34,090 bases of DNA from Lachnospiraceae bacterium (GTDB lineage: Bacteria; Bacillota; Clostridia; Lachnospirales; Lachnospiraceae): assembly GCA_017539565.1 (NCBI GenBank), contig JAFYCS010000054.1:1-34090 (forward strand), read 5' to 3'. The notes beneath the pieces were generated by a model. That model saw only the letters and a program-made list of their open reading frames with translations, did no database searches and had not been told where the DNA came from. This document shows positions 9,240 through 33,945 of this stretch, in pieces. The position numbers and the translations under genes are program-made. Every line of letters begins with the position of its first letter. The first letter of the stretch is position 1.

Positions 9240-12050
9240 TCACAGCGCATTTGCCATAGCGGTCACTGCCTTTTCATAGGCTGTCACAAAGGCATCCGAA
9301 TCGTCCCTGATAAAATCCGTATCGCCGTCACGCGCGGCGAATTCATGCTGCTTCGCGCGTTCACTCAGCTCCTTCATGCCCAGTATCGCCATGGAACTCT
9401 TTACAGAATGTGAATCTATCCTGTATGTTTCGTAGTCATTATCTTTAAGTGCCTTACGCATACGCACTACACGTTCTGTTCCCTCTTCAACTGCATCCCC
9501 CACTATCACAGCCAGCATCTCTTCACTGCCGCCGCAATATGTAAAGGCCGTATCTATATCAAGCCCTTCTATTGCTGCCAGTTTATCCTTTAATCCGCCG
9601 GCTGATCCGGAACTGCCTTTGCCGCCTTCTCCGGCAGGCTCGAATTCAAATATTCCGTCATCATCCTCTTCCTCCGGCACTGCTTCTTTCACCTTATCCG
9701 CAGGCAGCATATTCTTTACGGTCTGCTCTAAGAGCTTTGAATCCAGAGGCTTGGTCAGGTAATCATCAAAACCTTCATCCATATACATCTGCCGGCTTCC
9801 GGCTACGGCATTTGCCGTAAGGACGACAGCCCCGGTGTCCTTATTAAGCGACTTTACATCACTGCGGATCATATGCAGGGTCTCGATGCCGTCAGGTGCA
9901 GGCATCATATGATCCAGCAGTATCAGGTCATATTTCTTCTCACGACACAGCTCAACCGCCCGGTTACCGTCACCGCACAGATCAGGCACTATTCCCGTCC
10001 TTTTAAGGAACAGCTTAACTATCGTCAGGTTTGAACGGTTATCATCTACCGCCAGTATCTTGGCATCAGGCGCCATAAAGCTGCAGGTCTCGGTCTCATC
10101 ACCGCCGGAGCTTTTTGTATCCATAAAATCATTTTTTAAAGGCTCCTTATCCACAAATCTTACCGGCAGAGTGACTTTGAATTCGGAGCCCACGCCGTAT
10201 TCACTCTCTACACTAACATCGCCGTTCATTGAATCGACGATGCTCTTTACGATAGCCAGCCCCAGTCCCGTGCCTTCGATGTTAACATTAGACTTCACAT
10301 CTGCACGTGAAAAGGCTTCGAACAGATAGGGAAGCTCTTCCTTCTTTATGCCCTTCCCCGTGTCTTTTACATTCATGAACAGCTCATAAGCGTCACCTTC
10401 CGCAAATCTTCCTCCCAGTTCGAGAGTCACGGTACCGGATTCTGTATATTTCACGGCATTATTGATCAGGTTTACCAGTATCTGGCGTATCCTGAACTCA
10501 TCGCTTATAAGCCCGTCCGGTATTTCCGCTGTAAGCTCCGTCTTAAGCTCCAGGCCCTTTTCATCGGCACGCTCCCTGACCAGCGAAATAACATCGCTCA
10601 GCATTTCAGACAAGCGGAATTTCGCTTCTACGATCTCCATCTTACCCGCTTCGATCTTTGAGAAGTCCAGCACGTCGTTGACCAGCATCAGCAGCATCTT
10701 GCCGGAGGTCTTGATGCTCCTGGAATATTCGCCCACGACTTTATCCTTATTTTCACGCAGTATCATCTCGTTCATTCCCAGGATCGCATTGATAGGCGTC
10801 CTTATCTCATGGGACATGCTGGCAAGAAACTGGGTCTTTGCTTCGGAGATATCGATCGCGTGCTGCTTTTCCATGTCCAGCTTCCTGAATTCCTCCACCT
10901 GCTGCATCACGACAAACACCAGCATAAAGCCTAAGCCTGTTACCATGGGAAGTGTCGCATTGATCATCGTCACCATCAAAAGCATCATCAATTCAATGAT
11001 ACAGCAGATCAAAAAGCCAAGGAATCCGATAAAAGTATAGCGGTAATCCCTGACACCGTTCTTTACGGCATCATATATAAGCAGTCCGGTCGCGTATAAT
11101 GCAAGAAAAACAAATACCATATTGGCATAATACCGGTTTTCATAGAAGGATGCTATACCGGTAAAATGAAGGAGGGGCCAGATGACCGCATTTATGACAG
11201 CTATGATCATCAAAACAGACATACTCTTTTTGAGGCGTCCGTGCTGTACAGAATTAAGATATATCGCGGGGGCAAAGGGTATAAGTAATGACAGCAGATA
11301 ATTCACGGTGCCGTTTATATAGTTCACGCTGAAAACAAAAGGAAACATCTTGGAATCCGTAAGCAGCCACGATGCGATCACCGCGATCCCCAGTGCACCG
11401 TACAGCATATTGATCTTGAGCTTATATATGATGCGCAGTACAACACTTACGATAAAAACTACCAGGGCGAATGTCAGTACTATAAATGCCAGCATGAAAT
11501 TCATCCCATGCGAACGGAACAGGTAGCTTAACGCGCCGAAACGCGTGCTGATAAAAGTCCCCGGTATGATCATACCGTCCTTAGGCGGGATCAGTCTCTC
11601 TATACGTATATCTTTCCCGGAATCACTGCCTTCAAGAGGTATCAGCATGTAGAAATATTTTACGATGCCGCCTGGGATGTTAACATCACGTTCTTCTATA
11701 AAATCCGCCCTGAACTCTCCGTCTACGTATACTTTGACGTCGTAGCGGTTATAAAAGAAAAGCATATCGTTATCTTTAATATCCCCGGGAAGCGTTGTCA
11801 TGATGGTACAGGATTTTGCTTCACCTGCTTTGGTGATAAATTCCCTGCCCGTGTTGAACGTGCTGCCGTCACTGTATTCTACGGTCCAGCTGTCTATAAA
11901 GCGTATGGGGTCACTCTCCCATACATCAGAATGATTGGATATGCTGAAAAAAGCCAATACCATTGCGGTAAAGGCCAGTGCAATACACAGGAATATCTTT
12001 GATATCCTTGAGACCCTGTCCAATAATTCCGGAGGCTGGTTATTACTCAT
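9240..12050 (-). CDS. Hybrid sensor histidine kinase with receiver and HPt domains
   Basis: A 936-residue membrane kinase carrying a whole phosphorelay. A first span (about 17-37) leads to an extracytoplasmic domain (about 40-180). Seven closely packed spans (about 182-385) follow, resembling the 7TMR-DISM layout. Then come HisKA with SMSHEIRTP (His414), a HATPase domain with NLINNAVKY, DTGKGI and GTGLGL, a receiver with DD near 669, Asp713 in LLDHMMP and Lys767 in LTKP, and an acidic linker. A C-terminal HPt domain has HSVKSS (His881). ATG 12050 has AAGGAG six bases upstream; a TTG at 12065 in the same frame lacks such a site. The gene overlaps the upstream coiled-coil gene by 8 bp. No partner response regulator is in the window. 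Confidence 0.93.
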   Translation of the reverse strand: MSNNQPPELLDRVSRISKIFLCIALAFTAMVLAFFSISNHSDVWESDPIRFIDSWTVEYSDGSTFNTGREFITKAGEAKSCTIMTTLPGDIKDNDMLFFYNRYDVKVYVDGEFRADFIEERDVNIPGGIVKYFYMLIPLEGSDSGKDIRIERLIPPKDGMIIPGTFISTRFGALSYLFRSHGMNFMLAFIVLTFALVVFIVSVVLRIIYKLKINMLYGALGIAVIASWLLTDSKMFPFVFSVNYINGTVNYLLSLLIPFAPAIYLNSVQHGRLKKSMSVLMIIAVINAVIWPLLHFTGIASFYENRYYANMVFVFLALYATGLLIYDAVKNGVRDYRYTFIGFLGFLICCIIELMMLLMVTMINATLPMVTGLGFMLVFVVMQQVEEFRKLDMEKQHAIDISEAKTQFLASMSHEIRTPINAILGMNEMILRENKDKVVGEYSRSIKTSGKMLLMLVNDVLDFSKIEAGKMEIVEAKFRLSEMLSDVISLVRERADEKGLELKTELTAEIPDGLISDEFRIRQILVNLINNAVKYTESGTVTLELGGRFAEGDAYELFMNVKDTGKGIKKEELPYLFEAFSRADVKSNVNIEGTGLGLAIVKSIVDSMNGDVSVESEYGVGSEFKVTLPVRFVDKEPLKNDFMDTKSSGGDETETCSFMAPDAKILAVDDNRSNLTIVKLFLKRTGIVPDLCGDGNRAVELCREKKYDLILLDHMMPAPDGIETLHMIRSDVKSLNKDTGAVVLTANAVAGSRQMYMDEGFDDYLTKPLDSKLLEQTVKNMLPADKVKEAVPEEEDDDGIFEFEPAGEGGKGSSGSAGGLKDKLAAIEGLDIDTAFTYCGGSEEMLAVIVGDAVEEGTERVVRMRKALKDNDYETYRIDSHSVKSSMAILGMKELSERAKQHEFAARDGDTDFIRDDSDAFVTAYEKAVTAMANAL

Positions 12051-18663: not shown

Positions 18664-21255
18664 TTAATCTAATCCGGGTACGAAGCGGATAGCCTCATCA
18701 GCGGTAAGGGGCTTGCTGAAATAGTAGCCCTGTATGGTGTCAGCCCCCAGTTCCTTTAAACGGTAATACTGCCACTTCTCTTCCACACCCTCAATGGTCA
18801 TCTCCTTGTTCAGGTCATGGATGAGGCGTATCACATCGTCGATAAAGGCATCCTTACCATCCACCAGGTAATTATCCACCAACGATTTATCCAGTTTTAT
18901 CACATCCACCGGTATATAAGTCAGGTATCCAAGTGACGAGTACCCCGTACCGAAATCATCCATCAGCATCCGTATACCCATCTCCTTAAAGCGCTTAAAC
19001 AGCTCATCTGCGCGTGCAGACTTATCCAGGAAGATACTCTCCGTTATCTCTATCTCCACATACTGTACCGGCACATCGTACTTCTTAAGCAGTTCCTCCA
19101 AAAAGTCCACATAGCCCGCATCGCTTATCTGGTTACTGGAGAAGTTGACCGATACCGGATGCAGTGTATGCCCCTGATCACGCCACTCTGCCAGCTGGCG
19201 TACCACAAGCTCGGTGGTGATACGTCCTATCCTCCATATCCAGCCGCACTTCTCCGCAACAGGAATGAACTGTCCTGGGCCGATCCCTTTCTCCTTCATA
19301 CGTATCAGTGCCTCAAAACCGCATACCCTGAGCTTCTGCACGTCCACCTTGGGCTGATAGACCATATAGAAGCCGTCACTGTCAAATGCCTCACGTATCG
19401 CTTCACGTATATGCTTTTCCTCACGTGCCTTCTCCTGCAGCTCATCGCTGTAGAAAAATACACGGTTACGGCCCAGGCTCTTGGCTACGAACATGGCTTC
19501 TTCCGCATTATTTATATGATCGTCCACGCCCAGCACTCCGTCGGCATTGGACACACCTATGCTGGCTGTCAGTTTAAGTTCCACACTGCCTGAGTGGAAA
19601 GGCTCGTTAAATACACTGCGTATCTTTTTAAGTGCAGGATGTTCTTCCGTCAGCGGCTCGTTCAGCATGATCAAAAACTGATCCCCGCTGTATCGTGCCA
19701 GAAGCCAGCGGTTCTCAAGGGTCAATACCTTAAGCCCCATGGCCACTCTCTTTAAGACCTCATCCGCCAGCTCATGGCCGTAGGTCGCATTGATGCCTTT
19801 AAATCCCTCTATGTCCGCCATGACATAAGACGCACTGCTCCATTTTCCTTCCGCCTGCGTTAAGAATTCCAGCGCATAACGGCGGTTGAAGATATCCAGA
19901 AGCTCATCATGCTGCGCCTTATATACCAGGTTCTGATGCTCGTTCTCCACCGCGTTCCTTAAGTAATGTACGCAGTTTTCCCGGTGGTTGAAACCGTTAT
20001 ATATAGCCGTAGCCATATCCATACAGCTGCTGTATCCGCAGGAACTGCAGTTGATGCGGCGGGATTCCATGCTTTCCTTTCCCATTGAACGGAAAATATG
20101 TTCCAGCTCGTTTATATCGGGTATCTTTACTACGCATTCCGACGAAAGATCACGGTAATGGCGCAGGTAATCCTTAAGATCCAGCGATGCAAACTGCTTA
20201 TTCAACGCTTCCAGTCTCTGTGCCGGCTGCAGGGCCCTTGATACTGCCGAATCACCGCTGTCTTTCTTTACACTCTCACGTATATTCAGCAGATTAAAGA
20301 GTGCCTTATCCGTAGATGATATCTCCGGATCCGTAGCAGTCCCGCAAAGGCAGCCGTTCTTGCAGTTGAGCGCATCTATAAAGAGGAAAGGTATGTCTTT
20401 ATCCGCAATGTTCTTCGCATGAGTCTTGAGATACTCATACATGTGGCGCTCACCCTCAAGCTGCCGTATGAATGCTCCTTCTCCCAGAAACCACTTTACA
20501 TGTTCTCTCAGCCCGCCGGGCATGGGATAGATAGACCCCAGACCGTATTCAACTTCATCCGAAACAGGCTCACCGTAGATGCCGCGCTCCTTCACCGCTG
20601 CCATCAGATGACGGAAGGTAACATTATACTCTACCAGCCCCTCATTATCCGGATCATCTATCTCCAGCTTCTTTGCAATGCATGGACTGATAAATGCAAA
20701 ACTGTCAGTTATCCCCAGCTCCTTCCGGGCATAAATGGCAGCGCACATCAGCGGGCTCTGCACAGGGAAAAGCCTGGGCAGCAGCTCCGGTATATACTTT
20801 TCGATATATGTTACCACGGCCGGACAGGGCCGCGAAATGCCTCCCGTAAAGCCGTATTCGTTGATATATTTGATATAACCCCAGGTGGTTATATCCGCCC
20901 CGAATGCCACGCTGATGATACGTTTTATTCCCAGCGCCTTAAGCCCTCCCAGCACACGTTCGTATTCATCGGGATAATTGGCACGGAAAGCCGGTGCTAT
21001 AAGAAGTGATATCTCTTTGCCTGCTTCCAGGTCCCTTAAGAACGCATCCGTATCATCGTTATATTCACGCGCATCATGCTGGCATACATCAAGGCAGGCT
21101 CCGCATCCCACGCAGCGTGCGGGATCCACATTTATATGCGAATGTCCGGATGCATCGGCAACCGTGGAGATGCATGCGCCCATGGCACTGCACACATTGA
21201 TGCACTTATTACATCCTACACAGTTTTCATTCGTATATACGAGTTCTTTTGCCAT
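18664..21255 (-). CDS. Hydrogenase-like Fe-S sensor fused to degenerate GGDEF and intact EAL domains
   Basis: An 863-residue cytoplasmic fusion. Residues 5-62 hold two 4Fe-4S ferredoxin sites (Cys12/15/18/22 and Cys48/51/54/58). Residues 75-310 are an [FeFe]-hydrogenase catalytic-type domain whose four H-cluster cysteines are all present: Cys144 (RPCPAV), Cys192 (SPCIAKKLE), Cys298 and Cys302 (NCKNGC). The proton-relay Cys that normally precedes the first is Pro143, as expected for a sensor rather than a turnover enzyme. Cys403/406/411/428 (Cx2Cx4Cx16C) form a further Fe-S domain. GGDEF (about 447-605) is degenerate, SGDQF at 523-527. EAL (about 615-860) keeps Glu648, Asn704, Glu736, Asp766-Asp767, Lys787, Glu822 and Gln842. 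The start at 21255 has GCAGGG upstream; an ATG at 21270 has no ribosome site. Likely a redox or H2-regulated c-di-GMP phosphodiesterase. Confidence 0.9.
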   Translation of the reverse strand: MAKELVYTNENCVGCNKCINVCSAMGACISTVADASGHSHINVDPARCVGCGACLDVCQHDAREYNDDTDAFLRDLEAGKEISLLIAPAFRANYPDEYERVLGGLKALGIKRIISVAFGADITTWGYIKYINEYGFTGGISRPCPAVVTYIEKYIPELLPRLFPVQSPLMCAAIYARKELGITDSFAFISPCIAKKLEIDDPDNEGLVEYNVTFRHLMAAVKERGIYGEPVSDEVEYGLGSIYPMPGGLREHVKWFLGEGAFIRQLEGERHMYEYLKTHAKNIADKDIPFLFIDALNCKNGCLCGTATDPEISSTDKALFNLLNIRESVKKDSGDSAVSRALQPAQRLEALNKQFASLDLKDYLRHYRDLSSECVVKIPDINELEHIFRSMGKESMESRRINCSSCGYSSCMDMATAIYNGFNHRENCVHYLRNAVENEHQNLVYKAQHDELLDIFNRRYALEFLTQAEGKWSSASYVMADIEGFKGINATYGHELADEVLKRVAMGLKVLTLENRWLLARYSGDQFLIMLNEPLTEEHPALKKIRSVFNEPFHSGSVELKLTASIGVSNADGVLGVDDHINNAEEAMFVAKSLGRNRVFFYSDELQEKAREEKHIREAIREAFDSDGFYMVYQPKVDVQKLRVCGFEALIRMKEKGIGPGQFIPVAEKCGWIWRIGRITTELVVRQLAEWRDQGHTLHPVSVNFSSNQISDAGYVDFLEELLKKYDVPVQYVEIEITESIFLDKSARADELFKRFKEMGIRMLMDDFGTGYSSLGYLTYIPVDVIKLDKSLVDNYLVDGKDAFIDDVIRLIHDLNKEMTIEGVEEKWQYYRLKELGADTIQGYYFSKPLTADEAIRFVPGLD

Positions 21256-21291
21256 ATAAAACCCTGCCATATTTATTATGGTATTTTATTG

Positions 21292-26551: not shown

Positions 26552-26863
26552 ATGGATGAAAACAACGAAAATAACGGACAAAAAGAATTACTTAAGGACG
26601 TGGACGTCATCTGCAGTTTTTCCCACAACGGGGTCATCACGCCGCTTCGCATACGCATGACTGATGAGGACGGCCAACGTCAGGCTTTCAACATAAAGGA
26701 ATACCGGGACTTATCAGGCCTGGGTGCCCGCACCATGCCCGACGGGGTCTATGTTGCCAACAATACCCTGGTCTTTGAATGCAAGATATGTGTCTTTCGC
26801 CATCTGCGTCTGATACGCCTGTATTACAATCCGCCCAAGATGATCTGGAAGATGACCGGTTAG
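26552..26863 (+). CDS. Small unknown protein under LexA control
   Basis: A 103-residue protein that I cannot assign. The first 15 residues are Asn/Glu/Lys-rich and disordered. Residues 17-50 (DVDVICSFSHNGVITPLRIR, then TDEDGQRQAFNIKEYRDLSG) look like a beta-rich fold. The C-terminal part has FECKICVFRHLRLIRLYYN and ends in PPKMIWKMTG. It faintly recalls small proteins found beside Y-family polymerase genes in Clostridia (pattern Dxx..G.i.Pl.i), but no such polymerase is in the window. The start has only a weak ribosome site (GGGTAAAG). It is monocistronic behind two LexA boxes and its stop overlaps the end of the convergent cyclase gene by 4 bp. Confidence 0.7.
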   Translation: MDENNENNGQKELLKDVDVICSFSHNGVITPLRIRMTDEDGQRQAFNIKEYRDLSGLGARTMPDGVYVANNTLVFECKICVFRHLRLIRLYYNPPKMIWKMTG

Positions 26864-28197
26864 GTCTTTGGTATTATTATCCCGCCGAAATACTCCGGCT
26901 CCCCTTCACTGTCGCACACCACAAAACACCTGGTGGCAAGCAGCACGTAACTTCCGTCCGGGCGGCGTGCCCGGTAGTGTATGGGCCGTAACTCACCATT
27001 GCCGTTTAATGCTGCATCTACAGCCTCTTTATATATTTCTTTATCATCCGGATGGATGTAATCCTGCCATATAAGGCCGGCATGATACATATACTGCGAT
27101 GACAGCCCGAAGTCATATATCAGCGACATCGACCATCGCGAAAAATCATAACGCATATCATTTATATACACATAGCCTTCTCCCGCCACGGTATACAATG
27201 CGCCGAAGAACCCGTCCAGCAGGCGCTTTCTTTCATCGGGAATAGGCTTATCCAGCGAGTTCATCTTCCGGAAACCTTCCATTAACGTTCTGGATTTAAT
27301 GGCCTTTTTATTCTCATACATGAGACTGTCTGCCCGCTCAAATACCTCGTTCACGTTTACATCCCTGCCGGGCTCGAATACCGCCAGACCGCTGGCCACC
27401 GTAGGCCCCGTCCGTGTACGCGTATTGCGGTCGGACTCTTCCCGCAGTTCTTTGAGCAGTTCATCGCGGTGGTCATAATCATAGTCACTGAGGATCACGG
27501 CAAACTCGTCACCGCCCACCCTGAATACGGGACTGTGCTTGAATACATTGCAGATCATCCGGCTTGTACGCTGTATCTCCTCATCGCCAAAGCTGTGTCC
27601 TCTGGTATCATTGATGCGTTTCAGATCGTTCACATCACACATGACTATGCCAAAAGGCAGATACTGTACGCCTTCACTTATCCTCTTATCTATCAAAGCC
27701 GTCTGCTCGGCAAAAGCATTCTTATTCCTGATACCTGTCAGTTCATCACGGCGTGCCATCATTTCTGCAGACTGCAGATTGCGCTCCTGCTCTTCTTTTT
27801 CTTTTATCTCATCATTGATATTTTCAAGACAGCATATGACATGGTTTCCGTCTTCACATTTGAGCATGATATGCCGCAGATGCGATATCTTACCGTTTTT
27901 CACGCCACGGCAGATCATCGATACCGCTCCGTCACTTTCAAGATTCTCTCTTATCCGGCTCTTATCATACATGCGCATCATCGCTTCCTGATCGGAAGGG
28001 TGTACAAAACGCCGCGCATTGTCACACGCTAACGCAAAGAAATCCGTACCGTTATCCGGAAATTCTATCTCATCTAAAGACCGTGAAGGGAGGAACTGGA
28101 TGAAATCTCCTGTTTCGATATCAACGTAATAAAGACTGTCGTAATGTTTGGCTAAAGTGGTTGCGATCTGATTAAACGCTGCCTGATCGATAGTCAT
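26860..28197 (-). CDS. PAS-GGDEF-PAS diguanylate cyclase
   Basis: A 445-residue cytoplasmic enzyme that makes c-di-GMP from GTP. The N-terminal PAS-like domain (about 10-130) includes YYVDIETGDFIQF. A short coiled segment leads to the GGDEF domain (about 143-305) with RRDELTGIRNKNAF, CDVNDLKRINDTRGHSFGDE and an intact VGGDEF at 227-232. No RxxD inhibitory site precedes it, so product inhibition is unlikely. A second PAS fold (about 335-445) follows the cyclase domain: VAGEGYVYINDMRYDFSRWS, then YHAGLIWQDYIHPDD, then YRARRPDGSYVLLATR. A C-terminal PAS after GGDEF is less usual. The ATG follows AAAAGGAG and there is a consensus promoter at 28242-28270. Confidence 0.9.
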   Translation of the reverse strand: MTIDQAAFNQIATTLAKHYDSLYYVDIETGDFIQFLPSRSLDEIEFPDNGTDFFALACDNARRFVHPSDQEAMMRMYDKSRIRENLESDGAVSMICRGVKNGKISHLRHIMLKCEDGNHVICCLENINDEIKEKEEQERNLQSAEMMARRDELTGIRNKNAFAEQTALIDKRISEGVQYLPFGIVMCDVNDLKRINDTRGHSFGDEEIQRTSRMICNVFKHSPVFRVGGDEFAVILSDYDYDHRDELLKELREESDRNTRTRTGPTVASGLAVFEPGRDVNVNEVFERADSLMYENKKAIKSRTLMEGFRKMNSLDKPIPDERKRLLDGFFGALYTVAGEGYVYINDMRYDFSRWSMSLIYDFGLSSQYMYHAGLIWQDYIHPDDKEIYKEAVDAALNGNGELRPIHYRARRPDGSYVLLATRCFVVCDSEGEPEYFGGIIIPKT

Positions 28198-30423: not shown

Positions 30424-31506
30424 TTACTCCATATCTTCAGCAATTAGTATGTTCTTGCCATGCTGCTTGCCGTAGTACATCCTTCCGTCGGCAACCTTGA
30501 TGATCGCGTCCGGTTCGTGATATGCATCACTGTATTCTTCCAGGCCGATGGTAACTGTTGCTGAGATACGTTTGTTGTAAAAGACCGTCGGATTGGCTTC
30601 CACGAATTTTCTGATATACTCCATCTTCTCCTTAGCCACGGCAAAATCGTAGTCTTTCATAAGGATAACGAATTCCTCACCACCCCAGCGGCAGATCTCG
30701 CATCCGCCCATCTCCTTTCTGATAAGGCCGGAAATATGCCGCAGTACCTCATCACCGCCGTCATGTCCGAAGGAATCATTAATGCGCTTAAAGTTATCTA
30801 TATCCAAAAAAGCTACACAGAAATGTCCCGGATTTTTATCATCCATAAGCGCATTGACCAGCGGCAGGAATCCGCGTCTGTTGAGCAGGTTGGTCAGTGC
30901 GTCAACATGTGCGTCGGTGGAGAGCTTTTCGTTCTTCTCCTCAAGACTTGTAAGTTCCTTTTCGCTGGAATAGATATACATCCAGGTATAGAATATTATC
31001 GAAAAGATCATTACAAAAGATGAAAAGATCATAAGGATCGTTTTCATCAGATTTCCTACATTGACGGGCGGTATCTCATCAACGTAAGCCACGTACATAT
31101 ATACATATACCGCAAAATGCAGGACCAGTATAGGTATCAGGATCAGTCTTTTATTTCCCTTAAAAAGGAAGGTACCGAAATACAGTATTATCGGCACTAT
31201 GGATACCAGAAAGCACCACGAACCGCAATCCCAGCCGATATACCCCGTCGATATCACGGCATATACAGCTACCTCTACCAGCAGGCTGACATAGACCGGC
31301 ATGATGGAGCCTATCTTACACAGAAGGACGCAAAACAGATAAACGATAACACTGACGATGTTGAGCCTGACAAGCGGCTGGACATCGGCGATGACCATCA
31401 GATATATCAGGGTCGCATGAACCAGACCCATGACCGCTATGGTAAATAAGAAGCCGTTATGCACAACGAAGTGCATGAACTTGTCTACAGTAAACTTTTC
31501 CTTCAC
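30424..31506 (-). CDS. Membrane diguanylate cyclase (GGDEF)
   Basis: A 360-residue enzyme with about six membrane spans in residues 16-180, a short coiled linker (181-200) and a GGDEF domain. The domain shows VDALTNLLNRRGFL, LDIDNFKRINDSFGHDGGD with Asp235, and the active-site loop RWGGEEF at 273-279, an accepted active variant. No RxxD inhibitory site is seen. The first codon appears to be GTG at 31506 with a poor ribosome site; an ATG at 31476 would remove ten residues but also lacks one. It heads the operon with the two-span protein, DUF4003 and the Cys-rich membrane protein. The spans resemble MASE-type sensing domains, with no identified ligand. Confidence 0.9.
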   Translation of the reverse strand: MKEKFTVDKFMHFVVHNGFLFTIAVMGLVHATLIYLMVIADVQPLVRLNIVSVIVYLFCVLLCKIGSIMPVYVSLLVEVAVYAVISTGYIGWDCGSWCFLVSIVPIILYFGTFLFKGNKRLILIPILVLHFAVYVYMYVAYVDEIPPVNVGNLMKTILMIFSSFVMIFSIIFYTWMYIYSSEKELTSLEEKNEKLSTDAHVDALTNLLNRRGFLPLVNALMDDKNPGHFCVAFLDIDNFKRINDSFGHDGGDEVLRHISGLIRKEMGGCEICRWGGEEFVILMKDYDFAVAKEKMEYIRKFVEANPTVFYNKRISATVTIGLEEYSDAYHEPDAIIKVADGRMYYGKQHGKNILIAEDME

Positions 31507-31593: not shown

Positions 31594-33945
31594 TTATGAT
31601 AAGCGTATATTGGTAATGGCGATCTGGTCACCTGTAATGGCCGCATAGATCTTTTTGTCTATGCCCGTGATGGTGACCTTATTGCGTATGGAAATGCCGC
31701 AGTTCTCCGTGATGATGGTTATGGTATTTTCTTCCACCTTGAATCTTACGACGGCGTCAAAGCCCTCACGCAGGAATTCCTTCCAGGCGTCCCACCCCTC
31801 AAAGCTGTCAAGAGTCTTTACGCTCAGCTTAAGGGAGCTGTTCGGATCACACTCCCAGGCCTCACCGTCAAAACGTGAAAAAGCCAGGTCGCGGTAATTG
31901 GCACCGTTCACCTTTCCGTCGTCAGATGTAAAGATATCGACAAACGGACAATGCCATACCAGACGTGCTGTGGGCAGGCACTTTGAGTGGAAAGATATCT
32001 TAAGGCCGTCCTTTACCTCCACTCCCTCCGATGAGTCAGTGCGGTATCCGTCTATCTGCACGTTGGGCAGGTCCCCCGCAGGAACATTTATATAACTGAT
32101 AGCCTCGGCTATTCTGGGAATAAAACCTTCTCCGATATCCTCTTCCGCCTTATCAATGCTGACATGACTGAAGCGGCAGTACTCCCCGGTAAGGCCGATA
32201 TAAGTATAGCGTGTAGAATCCGGCAGGGCAATGATCACCCTGACGGTCTGTTCCAGCCCTATGATCCTGACAAGCATATGGTCCCTGTACTTTACAGCTT
32301 CGATCACATACTCATCCTTCCGTCTGATATCCCCGGAAGTCTTGTCCGTGATCTCTGTTTCTATCTTCCGCGCGCCCCTGCACTGTGTGCGGCCGTCAAA
32401 CCATATCTCACCGTATTCGAAATAGTTAAGATCCTTTTTCTTCTTCTCCGTATCGTGTACGCGCCCGTCAAGGGAATCAAAGAGTATCAATGACGGTATG
32501 GGGATCTTGTCTTTTTCCTTATCGATAGTACCTATCCTCATGCGCAGCGTTGTCATAGTGGGGGTTATGAGTATGCCCGCAGATATCTTACTCCTGTATT
32601 CGGCGATACTCAGCTCGTCGCGGCCTGCCAGTTCTATGACTTCTTCACGTTCACACATCTCATATTCCGTATCCACATCAATAAGATGCAGCATAAGACG
32701 GGCATATTCCGGATCAAACTGGGTCCCCGCCCCCTTGACAAGCTCCTCTCGCACTATCTGCTGCGGTATGGGATCACGGTAGCTGCGCTTGGAAGACATT
32801 GCATCATAGGCATCCGCAACGGATATGATGCGCGCTATCTCCGGTATGTCGGTGCCCTTAAGTCCGTCCGGATATCCCTTTCCGTCATAACGTTCGTGAT
32901 GCCATGCCGCACCGATACTCAGATACGGAAACTCACTGATACGTTCAAGTATCTGCTTTCCGTATCCCGGATGCTTCTTTATCTCTTCATATTCCTCTTT
33001 GGTAAGCTTTCCTTCTTTGGTTATGATGCTGTCTGAGACACCTATCTTACCTACATCGTGGAGCATGGCTGCATAATAGATCTCATCACATTCCTGTTCA
33101 CTCTTCCCACTCATCTCCGCCAGCTTGCGCGAATACTCCGCAACTCGGGACGAATGACCGTGGGTATATTCATCCTTTGCATCGATAGCACTGGCTAAAG
33201 CTTCCATGACCTCTACCATGAGAGCCTTATGTTTAATGCCTGCCTCTTCTATATCCTCCACATATTTATCCAGCTTATCGTTAAGCTCCTGACGATAAAC
33301 ATTTGTAAGGAAGATATAATACTCCAGTATGCACAATGCCGTAACGATATCCGTATAACCAAGACTGGTATCCGAAAATTTCTCCATTACAGCGACTAAG
33401 ATCGCCTGTGCCAGTATCAGGTTGAGCATCAGTCCTTTTCGTTTATCGCCTATGCTGAACGCCCGTATGGATGCATTAAGAAGGATAAGCAGATACACAA
33501 ACTGTGTAATATAGATGGTAAGGCTCAGAGGCCCGCTGCGCCATATATTGTTTTCACTGATCCAGAAAGCCAGATGACTTCCGAAGAAAGCCGTAGAATA
33601 CACGGCCGCATTTATCAGAGCGGGAATGATACATATCAGCTTGTGCTTCCTGTCCTGCAGTATGATGATCACTTCCGTCAGAATGACAAAAGGCCGCAAA
33701 ATATAATTGATCATGCACATCGTCTGACGCAGCATTATGGTCCGCGCCGCATCAGCCGCTGACATTACACTCACATCAGTATTACGGTCAAAGGTACCCA
33801 CCACGGTGATCACAAACATCAACAAAACGCAGACGCGAAAAAGACTCGTCCCCGGTATCTTAACCTCCCTGTTTACAAACATCATGGTGATGATCGCCAG
33901 CAGGATCATGAGCGTTATGAAGTTTATCGTAAAATACGCAACCAT
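31594..33945 (-). CDS. Membrane HD-GYP c-di-GMP phosphodiesterase with large unknown C-terminal region
   Basis: A 783-residue protein. About six spans occupy residues 4-215. A coiled linker (218-255) precedes the HD-GYP domain (about 258-430) with HSSRVAEYSRKLAE, HDVGK (296-300), and HHERYDGKGYP (349-359), the full signature of c-di-GMP hydrolases. Residues 440-783, some 340 residues, form a further region rich in beta strands that I do not recognise, with two apparent halves (about 440-620 and 620-783). It contains YRTDSSEGVEVKDGLKISF and WKEFLREGFDAVVRFK. HD-GYP proteins normally end near the domain, so this tail is unusual. The ATG is preceded by AGAGAAG at short spacing. It has its own strong promoter. 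Confidence 0.9.
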   Translation of the reverse strand: MVAYFTINFITLMILLAIITMMFVNREVKIPGTSLFRVCVLLMFVITVVGTFDRNTDVSVMSAADAARTIMLRQTMCMINYILRPFVILTEVIIILQDRKHKLICIIPALINAAVYSTAFFGSHLAFWISENNIWRSGPLSLTIYITQFVYLLILLNASIRAFSIGDKRKGLMLNLILAQAILVAVMEKFSDTSLGYTDIVTALCILEYYIFLTNVYRQELNDKLDKYVEDIEEAGIKHKALMVEVMEALASAIDAKDEYTHGHSSRVAEYSRKLAEMSGKSEQECDEIYYAAMLHDVGKIGVSDSIITKEGKLTKEEYEEIKKHPGYGKQILERISEFPYLSIGAAWHHERYDGKGYPDGLKGTDIPEIARIISVADAYDAMSSKRSYRDPIPQQIVREELVKGAGTQFDPEYARLMLHLIDVDTEYEMCEREEVIELAGRDELSIAEYRSKISAGILITPTMTTLRMRIGTIDKEKDKIPIPSLILFDSLDGRVHDTEKKKKDLNYFEYGEIWFDGRTQCRGARKIETEITDKTSGDIRRKDEYVIEAVKYRDHMLVRIIGLEQTVRVIIALPDSTRYTYIGLTGEYCRFSHVSIDKAEEDIGEGFIPRIAEAISYINVPAGDLPNVQIDGYRTDSSEGVEVKDGLKISFHSKCLPTARLVWHCPFVDIFTSDDGKVNGANYRDLAFSRFDGEAWECDPNSSLKLSVKTLDSFEGWDAWKEFLREGFDAVVRFKVEENTITIITENCGISIRNKVTITGIDKKIYAAITGDQIAITNIRLS

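Follow-up and report, generated by a model that had tools for sequence, protein, structure and literature searches.

We analysed a stretch of 34,090 nucleotides (contig JAFYCS010000054.1, positions 1 to 34,090, of the Lachnospiraceae bacterium assembly GCA_017539565.1; hereafter the window), which bears on its reverse strand a single gene joining a hydrogenase-like iron-sulfur (Fe-S) sensor to a GGDEF-EAL output for cyclic dimeric GMP (c-di-GMP). Its product is designated P0001, the genome G000, and labels beginning with G and L are ours for genomes and loci. The gene and its parts are the following:

18664..21255 (-), whole gene, Fe-S/hydrogenase-like sensor plus GGDEF-EAL; P0001, 863 aa plus stop, one open frame
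21070..21225 (-), two ferredoxin-type CxxCxxCxxxC motifs; residues 11-62, Pfam Fer4_7
20341..21015 (-), H-domain; residues 81-305, Fe_hyd_lg_C PF02906, 95 bits, E-value 6e-27
19969..20055 (-), C-terminal Fe-S domain; residues 401-429, PF04060, E-value 4e-7
19885..19974 (-), presumed signalling linker; C428 to N457
19462..19917 (-), degenerate GGDEF; residues 447-598, E-value 2e-24, motif SGDQF
18709..19404 (-), EAL phosphodiesterase domain; residues 618-849, E-value 1e-60

The start codon is taken to be an ATG at 21,255 with AGGG six bases upstream; a further in-frame ATG lies upstream at 21,270. The ferredoxin (F-cluster) cysteines are C12/15/18/22 and C48/51/54/58, all four H-site cysteines are present (C144, C192, C298 and C302) and the Cx2Cx4Cx16C motif is formed by C403/406/411/428. 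These residues and the Pfam domains, every one of which scored over its cut-off, bear out an earlier note made from the sequence of the window, which had described ferredoxin sites, an H-domain, an Fe-S domain, SGDQF and EAL in one polypeptide; the search that it had proposed for Fe_hyd_lg_C, PF04060, GGDEF and EAL found all four. P0001 falls below the NCBIfam cut-offs of the catalytic hydrogenase groups A (TIGR02512, 93.0 bits against 405.95) and B1 (TIGR04105, 127.7 bits against 450). Pfam gave no match of P0001 to a PAS domain up to an E-value of 1 and none to the MCPsignal domain. An Rfam scan of the window gave no match, and a promoter and terminator scan returned sites not above the number in shuffled sequence.

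The same front end recurs with several outputs. Genome searches and loci of the GTDB collection were pooled to 153 distinct front-end open reading frames (ORFs), after removal of duplicates (same or contained front stretch) and of matches shorter than 150 front residues. Classified by output motif, with Pfam run on 19 of them, 97 lead to methyl-accepting chemotaxis protein (MCP) domains, 36 to GGDEF-EAL, eight to histidine kinases, four to HD-GYP and one to GGDEF alone, while six are truncated and one is unclassified by motif (L054, MCP by Pfam); these tallies are not natural frequencies, since the 80 GTDB loci are the best 80 of 324 and were sought with GGDEF-EAL fronts. The tally of this architecture that the earlier note had suggested thus stands at 36 of 153, and the PAS, kinase or phosphatase outputs that it had named as usual give way, in this biased sample, to MCP. 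Residue counts below refer to 152 fronts, because the L082 fragment is too short, with the window protein counted once.

The fusion is a real gene family under selection and not an artefact. The same junction is read through without a break in 17 orthologous ORFs, two of them from G007. Two main kinds of fusion can be told apart, type 1 (17 fusions, including that of the window) and type 2 (15 fusions). From C428 to the first Asn of the GGDEF domain the distance is 29 residues in 16 of the 17 type 1 fusions (21 in L129), and the linker is 23 residues long in 15/15 type 2 fusions; such a constant length is expected of a helix obliged to keep its register. All 16 cluster cysteines are kept in all 36 GGDEF-EAL fusions. 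The ratio of nonsynonymous to synonymous substitution rates (dN/dS) is about 0.01-0.2 for the front, GGDEF and EAL segments in ten pairs, a rough estimate as dS exceeds 1 in several pairs; dS was saturated, and no ratio was obtained, for the front and GGDEF of L131/L141 and for the GGDEF of the window/L050 pair.

The front end is of an already known kind, that of the sensory [FeFe]-hydrogenases of groups C and D (TmHydS, TamHydS, RaHydS), which share with P0001 the two F-clusters, the H-domain, the Cx2Cx4Cx16C motif and a replaced relay cysteine. The pocket was mapped by a HMMER alignment of P0001 to the "Iron hydrogenase 1" chain 9rj9_A, which we take to be CpI of C. pasteurianum, and positions were counted on that chain. 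P143 is aligned at the proton-relay cysteine (C299), S190 with M353 and Y243 with F417, and in a second, weak stretch of the alignment L296 with M497 and D294 with E495. The importance of these positions is addressed in PMC8163306 and PMC10055695. According to the former, the characterised group D sensor TamHydS carries Ser for M353 and Leu for M497, both of which P0001 shares (S190 and, in the weak stretch, L296); according to the latter, the relay cysteine is replaced in most sensory sequences of HydDB, by Pro in ~10%. The earlier note had pointed to Pro143 in place of the relay cysteine; the alignment agrees that the cysteine is replaced, but the proline is not peculiar to this protein, being found in 147/152 front ends of the clade whatever their output, and in 33 of the 36 GGDEF-EAL fusions. 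The likely equivalents of the TamHydS proton path E252/E289 are L249 and D294, mapped indirectly through CpI. Of the group traits, the PAS domain that follows the C-terminal cluster in group C (M2f) is lacking in P0001, and the Ser/Thr for M353 of group D (M2e) is present. No front in the classified sets has lost any of the four H-site cysteines. An Asn precedes the first and the last cysteine of the C-terminal cluster (N402 in 32/36 and N427 in 35/36 fusions), at the positions held in TamHydS by D378 and D403, provided that C379 of TamHydS is the first of these cysteines. The TamHydS cluster is not reduced by H2, for which two adjacent Asp are offered as the reason in PMC13104023; Asn instead of Asp could thus ease reduction of the cluster.

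The output half retains the catalytic residues expected for c-di-GMP hydrolysis. The EAL domain of P0001 has E648, N704, E736, E739, D766, D767, K787, E822 and Q842 with the loop DDFGTGYSS, the catalytic set of such phosphodiesterases, and this set is complete in 35 of the 36 fusions, L101 being the exception. The GGDEF domain reads SGDQF where an active diguanylate cyclase has GG(D/E)EF. Its catalytic Glu is lost in 28/36 fusions, while N489 and D498, presumably the GTP base contacts known from PleD-like cyclases, are kept in 36/36, a combination that fits a GTP-binding regulatory domain. The best NCBIfam matches of the back half, below the equivalog cut-offs, are the phosphodiesterases DibA (272.8 bits) and DosP (246.6 bits).

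We read P0001 as a redox-controlled c-di-GMP phosphodiesterase, a soluble one-component switch, and give this reading a probability of roughly 55%. The front end, with two ferredoxin-like [4Fe-4S] clusters, the H-site cluster and the C-terminal [4Fe-4S] cluster, would gain or lose electrons, with ferredoxin, or oxidation, as the source or sink. The redox change would shift the segment leaving the last cluster cysteine, C428, which appears to run directly into the start helix of the GGDEF domain, and the degenerate GGDEF, probably a GTP-binding regulator, would set the hydrolysis of c-di-GMP by the EAL domain. Because most hosts of the clade are without HydG, their H-site would hold a plain [4Fe-4S] cluster; in the window's host a full H-cluster, hence an H2 input, may still be available. 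The domains, the conserved residues, selection, recurrence and genome content are observed here, while cluster occupancy, the sensed signal, a helical linker, GTP binding and both the direction and the magnitude of the effect are steps that we infer.

In the host, c-di-GMP would probably be read by PilZ proteins and by c-di-GMP-I riboswitches, of which one precedes a type IV pilin gene. The genome holds three PilZ matches, one flagellin and two c-di-GMP-I riboswitches; the pilin ORF (type IV, N_methyl) lies 36 bases behind one of these. Across five genomes with the fusion, nine riboswitch loci were compared by the longest ORF whose start is no more than 700 bases downstream; a pilin-like ORF lies behind three of the nine (G000, G007 and G032, the latter two judged by eye) with a gap of 36-70 bases (L212:769-1455, L247, L250).

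The distribution of HydG bears on the nature of the signal. HydG is the maturase that produces the iron unit, with its CO and CN ligands, for the [2Fe] subcluster. Among 60 relatives, the host's own genome included, and with presence of the front judged among the matches listed, down to ~170 bits, HydG was found in four of the 32 front-carrying genomes (G000, G011, G031, G039) and in 12 of the 28 relatives without a listed front (Fisher p 0.01 for a negative association); a partial HydG match in G024, which has no front (308 bits, 173 positions), was counted as absence. Half of the 28 front-carrying genomes without HydG are ≥95% complete, G018 among them with 8% contamination. HydG was over the cut-off in two of nine other fusion-bearing genomes; of the seven without it, five belong to the 28 and two (G269, G419) lie outside the 32. 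It was likewise not found in the four hosts of HD-GYP fusions (G012, G016, G019 and G023, 72-97% complete). As a control, Thermotoga maritima was the only one of 14 named genomes to pass the cut-off, presumably with its known HydG. The front has a dN/dS of 0.06 in the pair L044/L018, whose hosts, 100% and 89% complete, are both HydG-negative, and among close members the H-site pocket residues are alike in HydG-positive and HydG-negative hosts; odd pockets occur on both sides (L053 and L100 in HydG-positive, L062 and L101 in HydG-negative hosts). With HydG missing from most hosts examined, most proteins of the clade can hardly hold a full H-cluster, and as every classified front keeps its H-site cysteines all the same, dependence on the [2Fe] subcluster is unlikely for the clade as a whole. 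The conserved mechanism of the clade thus probably works with [4Fe-4S] clusters alone, by redox sensing, and H2 sensing is possible in the window's own host. Where the earlier note had proposed that H2 or redox state sets c-di-GMP breakdown, the H2 half is weakened and redox is the better half.

A true H2 sensor, in which the binding of H2 to a complete H-cluster matured by HydE, HydF and HydG would control the EAL domain, is the strongest rival and in our view doubtful. It draws on the maturases that the earlier note had named for checking, all of which are present in the host as equivalogs over the cut-off in one cluster (HydE 593, HydG 900 and HydF 545 bits), on the four H-site cysteines, on the TamHydS-like Ser and Leu (PMC8163306), on the replaced relay cysteine, as in most sensory sequences (PMC10055695), and on the many related records that are rumen metagenome-assembled genomes (MAGs), from a H2-rich habitat. 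Against it stand the 28 of 32 front genomes and seven of nine other fusion genomes in which HydG is missing, and the front and pocket of close members, which show no difference by HydG status.

The redox reading in turn has several points to its disadvantage. The pocket Lys K195 (147/152) and Glu E198 (152/152), shared with group A, are kept. The host has HydE, HydF, HydG and a catalytic group B1 hydrogenase (574 bits), so a complete H-cluster can be made there. The association of front and HydG has p 0.18 in 42 good-quality genomes and p 0.54 inside the genus, is uncorrected for kinship between relatives, which are not independent, and concerns HydG as the sole maturase sought in relatives, most of them MAGs. 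On the output side, six of the nine riboswitch loci have other ORFs behind them, and a c-di-GMP-I riboswitch was found in four of nine other fusion-bearing genomes and not in the remaining five. An anti-correlation of front and HydG as a claim of its own was cut back to "no dependence", as it is not significant in good-quality genomes.

A wider reading, on which we are evenly divided, would have this whole clade of "sensory hydrogenases" give up the [2Fe] subcluster and H2; the H-domain would be a [4Fe-4S] redox sensor kept by selection in HydG-less hosts and joined successively to chemotaxis, kinase, EAL and HD-GYP outputs, and ferredoxin redox poise (or oxygen or nitric oxide) would steer swimming and c-di-GMP in rumen bacteria.

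An EAL domain serving as a c-di-GMP receptor or structural partner in the manner of FimX or LapD, rather than as an enzyme, is improbable. Proteins with degenerate GGDEF-EAL modules are sometimes receptors, the GGDEF of P0001 is degenerate, the LapD receptor model matches it at 107.5 bits (below the cut-off), FimX chains are among its PDB matches and in L101, one of the distant members, the EAL is degraded (EVKCH, SDFGTG). The full catalytic set in 35/36 fusions, the best family matches, which are the phosphodiesterases DibA and DosP (below cut-off), and the parallel HD-GYP fusion, which points to hydrolysis, speak against a receptor. The L101 protein itself (L101:5936-9394 (-), 1153 aa), with front, GGDEF and degraded EAL followed by a PAS domain, may perhaps be a receptor rather than an enzyme. 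Still less credible is a bifunctional or cyclase-dominated protein, in which the GGDEF half would make c-di-GMP in some members: GGDEF or GGDEY is kept in some orthologues (e.g., L044, L018, L125) and in L053 the front leads to an intact GGEEF domain and nothing more, but the window protein has SGDQF and the Glu is present in just 8/36 members. Finally, an assembly or frameshift artefact joining two genes, against which the earlier note had warned, is refuted by the 17 uninterrupted orthologues, the constrained linker and the low dN/dS on both sides of the junction.

Concerning the origin of the fusion, the fronts of types 1 and 2 are 62-80% identical to that of the window, while the backs are 56-80% identical to the window's in type 1 and 26-32% in type 2. 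In the front tree (91 rows, with MCP rows thinned to 41) the type 1 and type 2 fronts are nested among MCP-linked fronts, and as one clade they are not rejected (p 0.80, in a test that omitted ten long or outgroup rows). In the back tree, type 1 stands among GGDEF-EAL proteins found by back halves only and type 2 elsewhere; a single origin of the GGDEF-EAL halves as one clade was rejected (approximately unbiased test, p 5e-45). The nearest backs to type 1 are L198/L199 (52-53% identical), and a hydrogenase domain is absent by Pfam from the back-half relatives scanned (L042, L198, L201). Both two separate fusions and one fusion with later swapping of the whole GGDEF-EAL half are possible histories under these trees. 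The more distant fusions L045/L062 and L100/L101 have an unsure placement owing to long branches. HD-GYP fusions are found at L030:856-2820 (-), L032, L055 and L056, with HD_5 at an E-value of ~1e-36 in L030 and L056. The two GGDEF-EAL lineages together with the HD-GYP fusions mean that c-di-GMP phosphodiesterases were recruited repeatedly by one kind of sensor. The protein with GGEEF alone (L053:2154-4520 (-)), from the HydG-positive G039, has an unusual H-site with V at the relay position and Cys at D294.

Most of the 80 GTDB records are MAGs of Lachnospiraceae from rumen or gut; a few come from isolates, and a few others carry the label Oscillospiraceae, Christensenellaceae, Clostridia or Clostridiales. 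In the window's genus at least seven of 35 genomes have a full-length fusion (G000, G005, G007 twice, G017, G030, G031, G032). Two candidates per genome were scored in the phylum and order samples, so that their counts are lower bounds: among the matches listed for 398 genomes across the phylum the full-length fusion is found only in the window's genome, and among 392 genomes of the order in at least four (G000, G269, G369, G419). G007, which is 100% complete and yielded no HydG, has two different copies (L044, L063), and MAG RUI362 carries one fusion of each type (L121, L135) on different contigs. A type 2 gene is also present at L156 in strain V9D3004, a record without a MAG label. A MCP-linked front lies ~7 kb from the fusion in G030 (L050).

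Compared with known systems, the output of P0001, GGDEF-EAL in the same chain, sets it apart from the sensors of groups C and D. HydDB (PMC5037454) divides [FeFe] group C into C1 (kinase-linked), C2 ("chemotactic (putative)") and C3 (phosphatase-linked), and ties c-di-GMP to [NiFe] group 2c, which is diguanylate cyclase-linked. Group C2 is close to our case, since MCP-linked proteins have the nearest fronts to P0001 in the tree and the host paralogue C73 has an MCP output, but it differs in that the output there is MCP and in P0001 c-di-GMP turnover. Group 2c shares the idea of a sensory hydrogenase acting through c-di-GMP but is an unrelated [NiFe] enzyme linked to synthesis. The sensor-GGDEF-EAL phosphodiesterases DosP, MorA and DibA have the same output module and arrangement as P0001. 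Their sensors are haem/PAS or membrane domains, not a hydrogenase-like Fe-S front. Nar1/IOP1 are hydrogenase-like Fe-S proteins without [2Fe], which act in cytosolic Fe-S assembly and have no signalling output; the likeness is that their H-domain cysteines are kept in organisms without HydE, HydF and HydG. Our search of the accessible literature found no published [FeFe] or sensory hydrogenase with a GGDEF, EAL or c-di-GMP output, in agreement with the earlier note, which knew of no characterised example, although annotation records or papers outside this search may contain one. As far as this search shows, the GGDEF-EAL output is new, and as a feature it is well supported. Further related literature comprises PMC8924675, PMC6776011, PMC4374699, PMC10787695, PMC10407848, PMC9431212 and PMC9867429.

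On the same basis, P0001 would be the first case of a sensory [FeFe]-hydrogenase-type module linked to c-di-GMP breakdown within one chain. As the signal of a single chain can be read as enzyme activity, the H2 response of "sensory" hydrogenases would become directly testable. That the front end has spread among genomes without HydG indicates that a H-domain can be retained for another purpose; the doubt about H2 is real and makes the family more interesting. Methane formation in the rumen is affected by H2 and by the flow of electrons, and switches of this kind could link redox state to pili and chemotaxis.

Apart from the fusion, the host has two more PF02906 proteins, the catalytic group B1 hydrogenase and a MCP-linked twin of the sensor (G000:C73, locus L046:5165-7102 (-)) with the same front end, a candidate soluble redox or H2 chemoreceptor like HydDB C2. 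The B1 hydrogenase (TSCCP motif) is located at L047 (G000:C85) with a CheC-like gene directly 3' and a PilZ protein ~4 kb away. A dedicated partner gene or operon of the fusion was considered and dropped, since, over 30 loci, neighbour genes recur only within a single group of close relatives and not in the clade at large. Positions in the L047 and window regions are the following:

L047 400-1056, 5342-6823 and 6870-7532 (+), the B1 hydrogenase with the motility-type genes around it
window 26860-28197 (-), GGDEF-PAS gene near the fusion, GGDEF intact
window 30424-31506 (-), GGDEF gene near the fusion, hydrophobic N-terminal half, GGEEF intact
window 31594-33945 (-), HD-GYP gene near the fusion

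In MAG RUG12461 (L119), a GGDEF-PAS protein (9995-11326 (+)) follows the fusion on the same strand, like that at 26860-28197 of the window, and a further front-end-related ORF (L119:11404-13320 (+)) is also found behind the fusion.

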